DNA from: Schauerella fraxinea
GTDB lineage: Bacteria > Pseudomonadota > Gammaproteobacteria > Burkholderiales > Burkholderiaceae_B
NCBI GenBank assembly: GCA_030849965.1
Contig: JAVDKL010000001.1
Coordinates: 868,001 to 932,000 of the forward strand
Direction of reading: 5' to 3'
DNA length: 64,000 bases
The notes under the pieces are model-generated. The model was not told where the DNA came from. It made no database searches and worked only from the letters and a program-made list of their open reading frames with translations. Below, in pieces: positions 53,147-56,137 of the stretch. Numbering within the stretch: the stretch's first letter is position 1; the number at the start of each line of letters is the position of its first letter. A program made the position numbers and the translations under genes.

Positions 53147-53350
53147 TTACAGGACCTGAATCTTCGTGGCTTGCGGGCCCTTTTGGCCTTGGCCGGACAC
53201 GTAGCTTACTTTTTGGTTTTCTTCAAGCGTCTTGAAGCCATTGCCCTGAATTTCAGAGAAGTGGGCGAAAAGGTCTTTGCCACCGGCGTCGGGGGTAATG
53301 AAACCAAAGCCCTTTTCCGAGTTGAACCACTTAACAATACCGGTTTCCAT
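53147..53350 (-). CDS. cspA: Cold-shock protein (CspA family)
   Basis: A 67-residue single-domain RNA-binding protein. [19 protein letters not shown] contains RNP1 (KGFGFI), and DLFAHFSEI contains RNP2. It is standard length. Such proteins melt secondary structure in mRNA, and their genes are often regulated by temperature-sensitive long leaders. An AGGA lies eight bases before the ATG. The space upstream (53351-53668) contains no other gene and could hold such a leader. It is a single-gene unit with its own terminator. Confidence 0.95.
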
Positions 53351-53668: not shown

Positions 53669-53824
53669 ATGCTAGGCACCATTCTACTGATCGTATTGAT
53701 TCTGTTGTTGGTCGGCGCGCTGCCCAACTGGAACCACAGCCGCAACTGGGGCTACGGTCCCACGGGCGGTCTGGGCTTGGTCCTCATCATCGTTATCGTC
53801 TTGTTGTTGATGGGACGAATCTGA
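53669..53824 (+). CDS. DUF3309 small membrane protein
   Basis: A 51-residue protein starting MLGTILLIVLILLLVGALP and ending VLLLMGRI. Two hydrophobic helices flank a central NWNHSRNWGYGPTGGLG, the hallmark of DUF3309. GAGGAG lies six to eight bases before the ATG. The function is unknown; relatives are common, often stress-associated small proteins in proteobacteria. A terminator-like hairpin follows about 17 bases after the stop. Confidence 0.9.
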   Translation: MLGTILLIVLILLLVGALPNWNHSRNWGYGPTGGLGLVLIIVIVLLLMGRI

Positions 53825-53867: not shown

Positions 53868-53870
53868 GAA

Positions 53871-53905
53871 CAATGGGCCGGCTTGCCTCGCAAGCCGGCC
53901 CATTG
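53871..53905. terminator. Perfect 16-bp hairpin between convergent genes (bidirectional terminator)
   Basis: CAATGGGCCGGCTTGC at 53871-53886 pairs perfectly with 53890-53905 across a CTC loop. It abuts the stop codon of the minus-strand dioxygenase-rhodanese gene. On the minus strand it is followed by TTCAAAAC, so the T tract is poor, but the stem is very stable and probably ends both convergent transcripts. Confidence 0.75.
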
Positions 53906-56137
53906 TCATTCTGCCGCCAGCACCGTGAAGCCGTGGGTACCGTCGCGCGCCAACTGATCGACCAGCCCATACTCCCAGTCCAGATAGCCCTGCATCGCCG
54001 CAACCGGATTATCCGTGCCCTCGTAGGGACGCCGATAACGGTCGGTTGGCTCGACCACCCAATCCGGCGCTTCCGCCGTCAGGCGTTCGCCCGCTGCCGT
54101 CCATCCTTGCGAGCCGTCACGCAGCACGTAAACCGTGGCCGCAATCCCCCACACCCGCAGCATCTCAACCACGTCCGACCACCCATGCGCCGCCAAGGCG
54201 CCATCCGGGGAGGTCAGCACCACGCGCGTGATCCCAGGTGTGGACGCCAACACCTTCGCCAACGCTCGCGCATCGGCGCGGCGAACATGCGACGCACCGG
54301 GCACATGCTGTTTGCGATAGTCCGCACTCGCGCCCATATCCACGATTCGCAATGCTGGTGCCACTGTGGGATCGTCCAGCCACCCTGCCAGTGCAGCGCC
54401 ATCGACCCATCGATCTTCCGGCACGTCCACGGCGCGCCATCCCGCCGCCGCAGGTTCGGCGGCCGGCCATTCGGTCACCGGCGGCGCATCATCCACCACG
54501 TGCACGTCCCATCCCATCTGGGCCAGCCACGACGCCGTCATGTTTGCCCGGACGCCATCGTCATCGACCAGCACGATACGCGCCCCGCGCACCGCTGCCA
54601 CATGATCCGTCTCCTGCACGAGTTGACCGCCGGGCGCACTGGCAAATCCAGGCAAGTGGCTGCGCGCGTATTCCTCAGGCGTACGCACATCCAGCCAATA
54701 GCAGGTGCGATCGGCCGGCTGCTGGAGCGCCTGCGCCAGCGATACGCGGGCCACGCCGGCGCGGTCGGCCAGCCGCCGTGCGCGCGTTCGCGCATCGGTG
54801 CGCCATGCGTCCGCCACGCTCCCCGCATGCCGGCGCGACTGGCCTCGTTCGAGCGCCTGACCCGCCAACGTCCAACCGATGGTGCCGTTGCGCAGAGCGG
54901 CCACTGGATTGGGAATCCCTATATTCACCAGCGACTGCGTGCCGATAATGCTGCGGGTGCGGCCAGCGCAGTTAACGATCACCTGCGTGCGGGGATCGGG
55001 CGCCAGATCCTTGATCCGCAAGGCAAGCTCCGCCCCCGGCACGCTGATTCCGCCGGGAATGCTCATCGTGTTGTATTCGTCGAAACGGCGGGCATCCAGT
55101 ACCACCACATCGGCGCGTGCATCGATCAAGGCCTGCACCGCCTCCGCAGAGAGCGACGGCGTATGGCGCTGCGACTCCACTAATTCGCCGAACGACTTGC
55201 TCGGCACATTGACGTCACGAAACAACTCACCTCCCGCGCGCCTCCAGCCAGCCAATCCGCCCGCCAGCAGGCACACGTCGACATAACCCAGTGCACGCAG
55301 CCGTTGCGCGGCCCGCCGTGCAAGGCCTTCACCGTCGTCGTAGACCACGATCGGCACATCGTGCCGCGGCAGGCGCCGCGCTGCATGCGTTTCGATCACG
55401 CTGTACGGCATATTGGCGGCGAATAACGGATGCGCCTCGGCAAACGGCGCCTCCTCGCGCACGTCGAGCAGCGCCACTTCGCGCCGCGCCATCAACGCCG
55501 CGCGCACGTCTTGCACGCTGCGATCGGGAATATCGCCGGGCAGCACACGCCATAAATTAGGCAAGCCGATATCCGCATACCCGGAGATGAACGGCTTCAC
55601 CGTGCCATCGGGTAGATACACTGCGCGCCGGATGGCACCGATATTGGCCCCGTAAACGTGAATGCTGATCGATACCCGATCGCTGAAGGTATTGGCCACC
55701 TGGTGAACGTCGCCGATCGATGGCGACACCGCTTCCACATCGCCCGGCTGCAACGTTTTTTCGGCGCCGTGCACGCGCGGCACCCCATTTTCCAGCGTGA
55801 ACGATTGCGCCCGTTCCGCGCCGCGCAGCATGCCGATCAATCCCCATACCGTATGGTCATGGATCGGTGTGCCTTGACCGGGACCCCACACAAAGCTCAC
55901 CACACTGAATCGCCCTGCCGGATCGGCATACAACAGATATTGCGTGTAGTGATCTGGATGGGGCGCAGCATATGCCGGATCGAGCCAATCGTCGTATGCG
56001 ACGAGCTGCCGCAAAAGCGCACCGCCATTATTTAATAGTTCAGATTCTGAATTATTAAAATCGGCAAGTTTGGAAAACCCCTCAATAAAATCGCGAAAAC
56101 GCGACCAATCGGGTTTTTCACGTCCGTACTCATCCAT
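53906..56137 (-). CDS. Thiol dioxygenase (cupin) fused to four rhodanese domains
   Basis: A 743-residue cytoplasmic fusion. Residues 1-190 are a cysteine-dioxygenase-fold cupin: iron ligands His93, His95 (PIHDHT) and His145 (GDVHQV), and the S158-x-H160-x-Y162 catalytic triad. The residue matching the carboxylate-binding Arg of true cysteine dioxygenase is Gln66 (HYTQYLLY), as in 3-mercaptopropionate-type enzymes. Four rhodanese modules follow (about 190-325, 335-445, 470-575 and 600-695). Only the second keeps the catalytic cysteine (Cys390, NCAGRTRS); the first and third have Asp near that place and the fourth reads TSPDG. It probably oxidises a thiol to a sulfinate and moves sulfane sulfur. 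AGGA precedes the ATG by about five bases. Confidence 0.88.
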   Translation of the reverse strand: MDEYGREKPDWSRFRDFIEGFSKLADFNNSESELLNNGGALLRQLVAYDDWLDPAYAAPHPDHYTQYLLYADPAGRFSVVSFVWGPGQGTPIHDHTVWGLIGMLRGAERAQSFTLENGVPRVHGAEKTLQPGDVEAVSPSIGDVHQVANTFSDRVSISIHVYGANIGAIRRAVYLPDGTVKPFISGYADIGLPNLWRVLPGDIPDRSVQDVRAALMARREVALLDVREEAPFAEAHPLFAANMPYSVIETHAARRLPRHDVPIVVYDDGEGLARRAAQRLRALGYVDVCLLAGGLAGWRRAGGELFRDVNVPSKSFGELVESQRHTPSLSAEAVQALIDARADVVVLDARRFDEYNTMSIPGGISVPGAELALRIKDLAPDPRTQVIVNCAGRTRSIIGTQSLVNIGIPNPVAALRNGTIGWTLAGQALERGQSRRHAGSVADAWRTDARTRARRLADRAGVARVSLAQALQQPADRTCYWLDVRTPEEYARSHLPGFASAPGGQLVQETDHVAAVRGARIVLVDDDGVRANMTASWLAQMGWDVHVVDDAPPVTEWPAAEPAAAGWRAVDVPEDRWVDGAALAGWLDDPTVAPALRIVDMGASADYRKQHVPGASHVRRADARALAKVLASTPGITRVVLTSPDGALAAHGWSDVVEMLRVWGIAATVYVLRDGSQGWTAAGERLTAEAPDWVVEPTDRYRRPYEGTDNPVAAMQGYLDWEYGLVDQLARDGTHGFTVLAAE

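Follow-up and report, generated by a model that had tools for sequence, protein, structure and literature searches.

We examined a 64,000-nucleotide stretch of the Schauerella fraxinea genome (contig JAVDKL010000001.1, positions 868,001 to 932,000; hereafter the window), which carries a gene joining a thiol dioxygenase of the 3-mercaptopropionate dioxygenase (3MDO) type to a tetra-rhodanese, a run of four rhodanese modules. The gene is a single stop-free frame, 743 codons long, that begins with ATG and has AGGA 4 bases ahead of this start, and Pfam assigns its 743-amino-acid product CDO_I once (residues 55-169, 3e-9) and Rhodanese in four stretches. Conservation is given over an alignment of 86 rows, comprising the best 80 of 522 relatives from a scan of genome contigs (a score ranking that over-represents fusions) together with the window, loci L022, L023 and L028 and two pairs of L021, with L107 incomplete. 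The features of the gene are as follows:

53906..56137, minus strand: fusion gene, 743 amino acids; open frame with its ATG start at 56137
55550..56104, minus strand: 3MDO-type cupin domain, residues 12-196, from phmmer and Foldseek
55538..55567, minus strand: flexible junction, residues 191-200, with a low predicted local distance difference test score (pLDDT)
53918..55531, minus strand: tetra-rhodanese part, residues 203-740, from the phmmer match to 1yt8 and Foldseek
54968..54970, minus strand: codon of Cys390 (loop CAGRTRS, rhodanese module 2), the one catalytic cysteine that is kept; Cys in 86/86 rows
54209..54211, minus strand: codon of Ser643 (module 4), where 78/86 rows have Cys

Residues 12-198 match the 3MDO structures 4QMA, 6XB9, 3USS/4TLF and 4WVZ in a phmmer search of the PDB (E 6.3e-73 to 3.5e-66), and Foldseek aligned the protein with chains of 4wvz, 6xb9, 4tlf, 4qma and 3uss at target-normalised template-modelling scores (TMt) of 0.89-0.95. 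An initial annotation, made from the DNA letters alone, had pointed to Gln66, His93, His95, His145, Ser158, His160, Tyr162 and Cys390, and every one of these residues lies where it placed them. The three iron-ligand histidines (His93, His95 and His145) are each present in 85 of 86 rows, with a gap in the remaining one, the Ser158-His160-Tyr162 triad is found in all 86, and position 66 holds Gln in 84 rows, Asn in one and a gap in one. Arg171, also found in 86/86 rows, aligns with the substrate-binding Arg168 of the Azotobacter 3MDO (Av3MDO), whose numbering differs from that of the window protein by an offset of 3, taken from the 6xb9 alignment (Gln63 = Gln66, Arg168 = Arg171). Excerpts of PMC8050391, which treat the roles of Arg168 and Gln63, describe Arg168 as holding the carboxylate of a substrate analogue. 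Because the histidine ligands, the triad, Gln66 and Arg171 are conserved, the dioxygenase part carries, by alignment, the residue set expected of a 3MDO. Its substrate is probably a small carboxylated thiol such as 3-mercaptopropionate.

The call of a Gln-type thiol dioxygenase is thus upheld, with Gln66 kept and 3MDO structures the best dioxygenase matches. An Arg-type cysteine dioxygenase is ruled out by Gln rather than Arg at position 66, and a mercaptosuccinate dioxygenase by a match to 8vni of only 1.3e-6, against 6.3e-73 to 3.5e-66 for the 3MDO structures. A fusion of the persulfide dioxygenase type has the wrong fold, since the window protein has a CDO_I cupin with three histidines and not the 2-His-1-Asp site of a metallo-beta-lactamase; no beta-lactamase family appeared in the Pfam results for the fusion protein up to E 1.

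Residues 203-740 match residues 6-529 of 1YT8 (539 amino acids; E 1.5e-197), a Pseudomonas aeruginosa protein titled thiosulfate sulfurtransferase, which ranked first in Foldseek (TMt 0.94, 61% identity) with the 3MDO structures next. This nearly full-length match and the four Pfam stretches bear out the count of four rhodanese modules, and the identity of both parts, a 3MDO-type dioxygenase and a tetra-rhodanese, is close to certain. 1YT8 shares with the fusion the four modules, 61% identity over the structural alignment and the loop CAGRTRS; it differs in being a separate protein and in having a cysteine in its module 4 loop, where the window protein has Ser643. We take 1YT8 to be PA2603; it was named in no paper of the literature searched, and tetra-rhodaneses, despite a solved structure, had no assigned role there.

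The whole fusion protein contains only three cysteines, at 289, 390 and 479. The claim that only module 2 keeps its cysteine is correct for the window protein and incorrect for the family, in which position 643 of module 4 is Cys in 78/86 rows, Ser in seven (the window and six others) and a gap in one. Since Cys643 is so widely kept, the catalytic cysteine of module 4 was probably lost in the window's lineage. Module 4 is also the least constrained module when the window is compared with its nearest relative, with a ratio of nonsynonymous to synonymous differences per site (pN/pS) of 0.244 versus 0.032 for module 2. Module 3 has Asp525 and Arg530, each in 86/86 rows, where the cysteine loop would be. 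The module 3 motif PGGQLVQET (residues 502-510) and the C-terminal tail DRYRRPYEGTDNP (residues 698-740) rank with the best-conserved parts of the fusion protein.

The single chain is found again in Achromobacter aestuarii KS-M25, the nearest named record and a member of the same genus, which encodes the same 743-amino-acid fusion at 88% identity. Synonymous divergence (dS) between the two genes is ~1.0, overall pN/pS is 0.13, and pN/pS across the junction is 0.084 (residues 196-206) or, over the wider span of residues 187-215, 0.131. A stop-free frame of such length at 88% conservation and pN/pS 0.13 lies far beyond chance. The initial annotation had named a frameshift as what would undo the fusion; we found none, the junction is under purifying selection, and the open frame together with the orthologue of the same length confirms that dioxygenase and tetra-rhodanese share one frame. 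An AlphaFold2 model built with 72 sequences (mean pLDDT 89.8; predicted template-modelling score 0.75) contains a single segment of at least three residues with pLDDT below 50, residues 191-200, and the gap between the two domain matches ranges from -2 to 68 residues across 33 fused proteins. Because of the low pLDDT of the junction and this variable gap, the model and the alignments fit better with a loose, flexible tether than with a fixed channel, which goes against the idea of a channel leading from Cys390 to the iron site.

We then considered how widely the 3MDO fusion occurs. The tree contains 33 fused and 53 split rows and needs five changes between the split and fused states, at least four of them forced by starred branches, a count in which gains and losses are not told apart. 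One group of fused rows holds the window, A. aestuarii and Bordetella genomosp. 1, and another is a clade of 26 made up of Limnohabitans, other Comamonadaceae and unnamed Burkholderiales or Betaproteobacteria; the rest are one Burkholderia with ten split rows beside it, one further Comamonadaceae metagenome-assembled genome (MAG), Pararobbsia and a Hyphomicrobiales MAG. On this tree, the fused state recurs in several separate branches. Fusion rates were taken from samples of the order and the family, which are less biased than the score-ranked list: a close tetra-rhodanese (E <=1e-140) was present in 11 of 250 genomes of the order sample and fused in one of the 11, the window, and was present in 38 of 268 genomes of the family sample and fused to a 3MDO in four of the 38. 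A class-wide survey yielded one genome of 369, the window itself, and says nothing on the fusion rate.

Among the split arrangements, two of the 38 family genomes (L009 in G026 and L117 in G496) have the two genes in the same frame, divided by one stop codon. A table of domain gaps and gene spacings covered the 33 fused proteins and 51 split pairs, leaving out the two L021 pairs; its large negative spacings stem from over-extended open reading frames (ORFs), and 19 of the 51 split pairs, mostly from Pseudomonas, have a 4-base gene overlap. Among 72,556 plasmid records, 88 had a match at E <=1e-50, and the annotated ones among the 20 listed name two products rather than a single one.

Tetra-rhodaneses are also paired with a second type of thiol dioxygenase. 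In two related genera, a mercaptosuccinate-dioxygenase-like domain is fused to a tetra-rhodanese, giving proteins of 735 and 750 amino acids, the former of which matches 8VNI at 2.9e-35. A search of the family sample with the 735-amino-acid protein found matches in 36 of 268 genomes (E <=1e-175), 31 of them over nearly the full length; 23 of these 31 have no stop inside the match, and eight are single frames of 746-783 codons with both motifs. The other five comprise four matches to the rhodanese part only and one divided over two contigs. Both types of fusion occur together in two genomes, G359 and G361.

Across 61 genomes, 25 of 35 tetra-rhodanese genes are fused to, or lie within ~1.4 kb of, a thiol dioxygenase gene: seven have a 3MDO partner (two fused), and 18 have a mercaptosuccinate-dioxygenase-like partner (two fused, the rest within ~1.4 kb on the same strand), where each partner was classed by its higher phmmer score against proteins encoded in the window's genome, with a direct comparison to 8VNI for just two of the 18. 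A gene standing between the dioxygenase and the tetra-rhodanese encodes a pyridoxal-phosphate (PLP) enzyme of Cys/Met metabolism in all four cases scanned, in agreement with the gene content of the Advenella and Variovorax clusters given in excerpts of PMC5373536. Where no partner was found, the neighbours scanned included acyl-CoA dehydrogenases at three loci, a single PLP enzyme and a single luciferase-like monooxygenase, along with unrelated genes. Repeated fusion of the tetra-rhodanese with thiol dioxygenases of two kinds suggests a functional tie between the activities.

The window's genome has two further tetra-rhodanese genes. One follows, with a 4-base overlap, a dioxygenase gene whose product is nearest 8VNI (E 5.5e-41). 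The other (L026:4589-6250; G000 contig C4:157000-167000) adjoins a gene for a flavin-mononucleotide-dependent monooxygenase of the NtaA/DmoA family (567 bits, cut-off 279.7) and genes for a peptide-type ATP-binding cassette transporter, with no dioxygenase gene in the 10-kb stretch. A further cysteine-dioxygenase-like protein of this genome (L027:4024-5367), the C-terminal part of an over-long ORF, is closest to 3MDO (8.2e-15) and then to cysteine dioxygenase structures. In a sister species (L128:2014-5571, G001 contig C7), a mercaptosuccinate-dioxygenase-like gene, one more gene and a tetra-rhodanese gene stand in a row; no such cluster was found in the window's genome beyond L025, with a query that is a weak probe for this dioxygenase type.

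The initial annotation had presented the architecture as an isolated oddity, which it is not: both halves have solved structures, the split operon has been published and the fusion recurs. The known 3MDOs (P. aeruginosa PA2602, 3USS/4TLF/4WVZ; Azotobacter 6XB9; the Ralstonia homologue 4QMA) resemble the fusion in fold and three-histidine site and share its Ser-His-Tyr triad and the equivalents of Gln63 and Arg168, but are separate proteins of ~210 residues, whereas here the enzyme is the N-terminal domain of a 743-residue chain. In Pseudomonas protegens CHA0, the homologues of PA2602 and PA2603 are two genes, 3mdo and tst, with 3mdo upstream in an apparent transcription unit, where the window has one gene; excerpts of that report state that deletion of 3mdo raised extracellular 3-mercaptopropionic acid (3-MPA), that deletion of tst had no significant effect (1716 versus 1457 at 4 h and 1968 versus 1750 at 8 h) and that tst was not followed up (PMC12947264). 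The mercaptosuccinate dioxygenase clusters of Variovorax and Advenella combine genes for a thiol dioxygenase, a cystathionine beta-lyase and a rhodanese-domain protein, according to sections of PMC5373536, with a dioxygenase of the other subfamily, whose structure 8VNI matches the window protein only at 1.3e-6. The two parts and the split operon are therefore already known, while the single-chain form and its recurrence with two dioxygenase subfamilies seem undescribed as far as our searches show; no title or start of an abstract in the literature searched, whose scope left most subscription papers outside, mentioned a thiol dioxygenase-rhodanese fusion.

We propose, with a probability of roughly 50%, that the window protein is the single-chain form of the 3MDO-tetra-rhodanese operon, with loosely tethered parts coupled on the product side. 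The iron cupin (His93/His95/His145 and Ser158-His160-Tyr162) would use O2 to convert 3-mercaptopropionate, or a closely related thiol, into the sulfinate, with Arg171 holding the substrate's carboxylate. Cys390 of module 2 would bear a sulfane sulfur as a persulfide, which would exchange with oxidised sulfur set free in the dioxygenase step or after it, most likely with sulfite to give thiosulfate and possibly with the sulfinate itself; this would be the physiological direction. Modules 1, 3 and 4, which have no cysteine at the catalytic position, are most likely scaffold and substrate-binding parts, and the linker would provide 1:1 stoichiometry and proximity without a fixed tunnel. Rhodaneses accept sulfite, and sulfinates can accept sulfane sulfur. 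We tentatively favour coupling to the Cys390 persulfide on the product side because the tetra-rhodanese is retained as the dioxygenase type, and presumably the thiol, varies, with sulfinate or sulfite as the shared yield. That deleting 3mdo raised 3-MPA in P. protegens and deleting tst did not significantly change it (PMC12947264) is the outcome one would predict for a rhodanese that works downstream of thiol oxidation or separately from it. Of the two possibilities raised in the initial annotation, a persulfide channel and a coupling to sulfite or thiosulfate, the second is the better.

Gene neighbourhoods were surveyed on both the split side (91 of the 119 genes in a list that covered 33 loci, drawn from 26 of 52 split loci) and the fused side (61 of 94 genes, from 18 of 33 fused loci). 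The 91 split-pair neighbours include, by Pfam, 13 NMT1-type binding proteins, nine luciferase-like monooxygenases, five LysR regulators and five acyl-CoA-dehydrogenase-type proteins; the NCBIfam model for the aliphatic-sulfonate-binding protein SsuA also has 13 matches, the same number as NMT1-type proteins, although NCBIfam counts are E-value matches to which curated cut-offs were not applied, which makes the Pfam counts safer. Judged by these families, many split operons sit in a sulfur-scavenging neighbourhood. The SoxA/TsdA cytochrome family accounts for two of the 61 fused-gene neighbours, and CXXCH motifs occur in only two of the 61, in L084 and L089. These neighbours (L084:2961-4007 and L089:3235-4047) probably encode dihaem cytochromes of the SoxA/TsdA type, and each lies ~1 kb upstream of a fused gene. 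As TsdA-type cytochromes act on thiosulfate, they give a weak hint of thiosulfate chemistry.

The known route from 3-sulfinopropionate to sulfite runs through its CoA ester. In the window's genome no 3-sulfinopropanoyl-CoA desulfinase scored above the curated cut-off (best 268.6 bits versus 600), so the CoA-ester route from 3-sulfinopropionate to sulfite is not recognisable there; a control search likewise found none above the cut-off in 14 genomes. The desulfinase Acd is named alongside 3MDO in Advenella in excerpts of PMC5373536. A broader version of the proposal, speculative and unlikely to hold, envisages a general module for sulfur release, built from the tetra-rhodanese and thiol dioxygenases of both subfamilies. 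There the persulfide on Cys390 would act on sulfite or an organic sulfinate to yield thiosulfate or thiosulfonate and so free the sulfur without a CoA desulfinase, with the fused proteins as a single-chain form fixed independently several times. Joint dioxygenase-rhodanese activity in a single polypeptide is testable in one purification.

Several observations weigh against product-side coupling in a single-chain operon. The 3MDO fusion is uncommon (1/11 in the order sample and 4/38 in the family sample), and 10 of the 35 tetra-rhodanese genes have no dioxygenase partner in the stretch examined. The fused-gene neighbours show no sulfonate-scavenging set: luciferase-like monooxygenases account for one of 61, and NMT1 is absent among the 25 of 55 families listed. 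Since the sulfonate-type families stand out beside split pairs and not beside fused genes, the sulfur-scavenging context is evidence from relatives and not from the window, whose gene has a cold-shock-like ORF, an aldo/keto reductase and a GGDEF/EAL protein as neighbours. The lack of a significant effect of the tst deletion, as given in excerpts of PMC12947264, also fits a rhodanese without a role in 3-MPA metabolism.

This last point is shared by a rather unlikely alternative, that there is no chemical coupling and fusion merely secures co-expression and equal amounts, the rhodanese having a role of its own, for example in thiosulfate:thiol transfer or as a sulfur relay. Such an arrangement would tolerate the domain gap of -2 to 68 residues and the tetra-rhodaneses found without a partner, and the same-frame genes with a single stop between them in 2/38 family genomes suggest that fusion may arise easily by accident. 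In turn, its recurrence with two dioxygenase types, and the frequent adjacency of the genes, exceed what would be expected from co-expression of unrelated functions. Substrate-side coupling, in which the iron site would receive its sulfane sulfur or persulfide substrate from Cys390 through the channel first envisaged, appears improbable. It has a precedent in persulfide dioxygenase-rhodanese fusions, a known enzyme type described in excerpts of PMC6060420 for Paraburkholderia phytofirmans and, as type III, Staphylococcus aureus, which might act likewise with glutathione persulfide. These enzymes join an iron dioxygenase to a rhodanese, as the window protein does, but have a metallo-beta-lactamase fold and a single rhodanese, compared to a cupin and four modules here. 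The linker is variable and of low confidence, the residues for binding plain 3-mercaptopropionate are intact, and in P. protegens the tst deletion produced no significant rise in 3-MPA (excerpts of PMC12947264).

We consider it very improbable that the degenerate modules are sensors of sulfur species through which the dioxygenase is regulated: module 3 has no cysteine yet keeps the invariant Asp525 and Arg530 and the conserved PGGQLVQ motif, as a sensor might, but Pfam finds no signalling domain in the chain, and in 34 of the 38 positive family genomes a tetra-rhodanese of this kind is encoded as its own protein. The chance that a sequencing or assembly error joined two genes is negligible, for although two genes are the rule in many relatives (53/86 tree rows, 34/38 family genomes), both an error and a decaying fusion are ruled out by the 743-amino-acid frame at 88% identity in an independent assembly of another species and by purifying selection across the junction.

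At its 3' end the gene runs into a hairpin:

53869..53907, no strand assigned: strong hairpin at the gene's 3' end, overlapping the stop codon and lying between the gene and a small convergent ORF

Folded on the minus strand, the hairpin has 18 pairs at -35.2 kcal/mol (z -7.0); it is not followed by a long run of T and is absent from the list of the terminator scan. The scan for promoters and terminators gave three sites, of which one is promoter-like and two are terminator-like; all lie on the plus strand, at the level of shuffled sequence. The fusion gene is flanked on one side by the small convergent ORF and on the other by a divergent GGDEF/EAL gene. The convergent ORF (53669-53824, plus strand) encodes a hydrophobic protein of 51 amino acids, presumably DUF3309-like, and a cold-shock-protein-like ORF of 67 amino acids lies at 53147-53350 on the minus strand.

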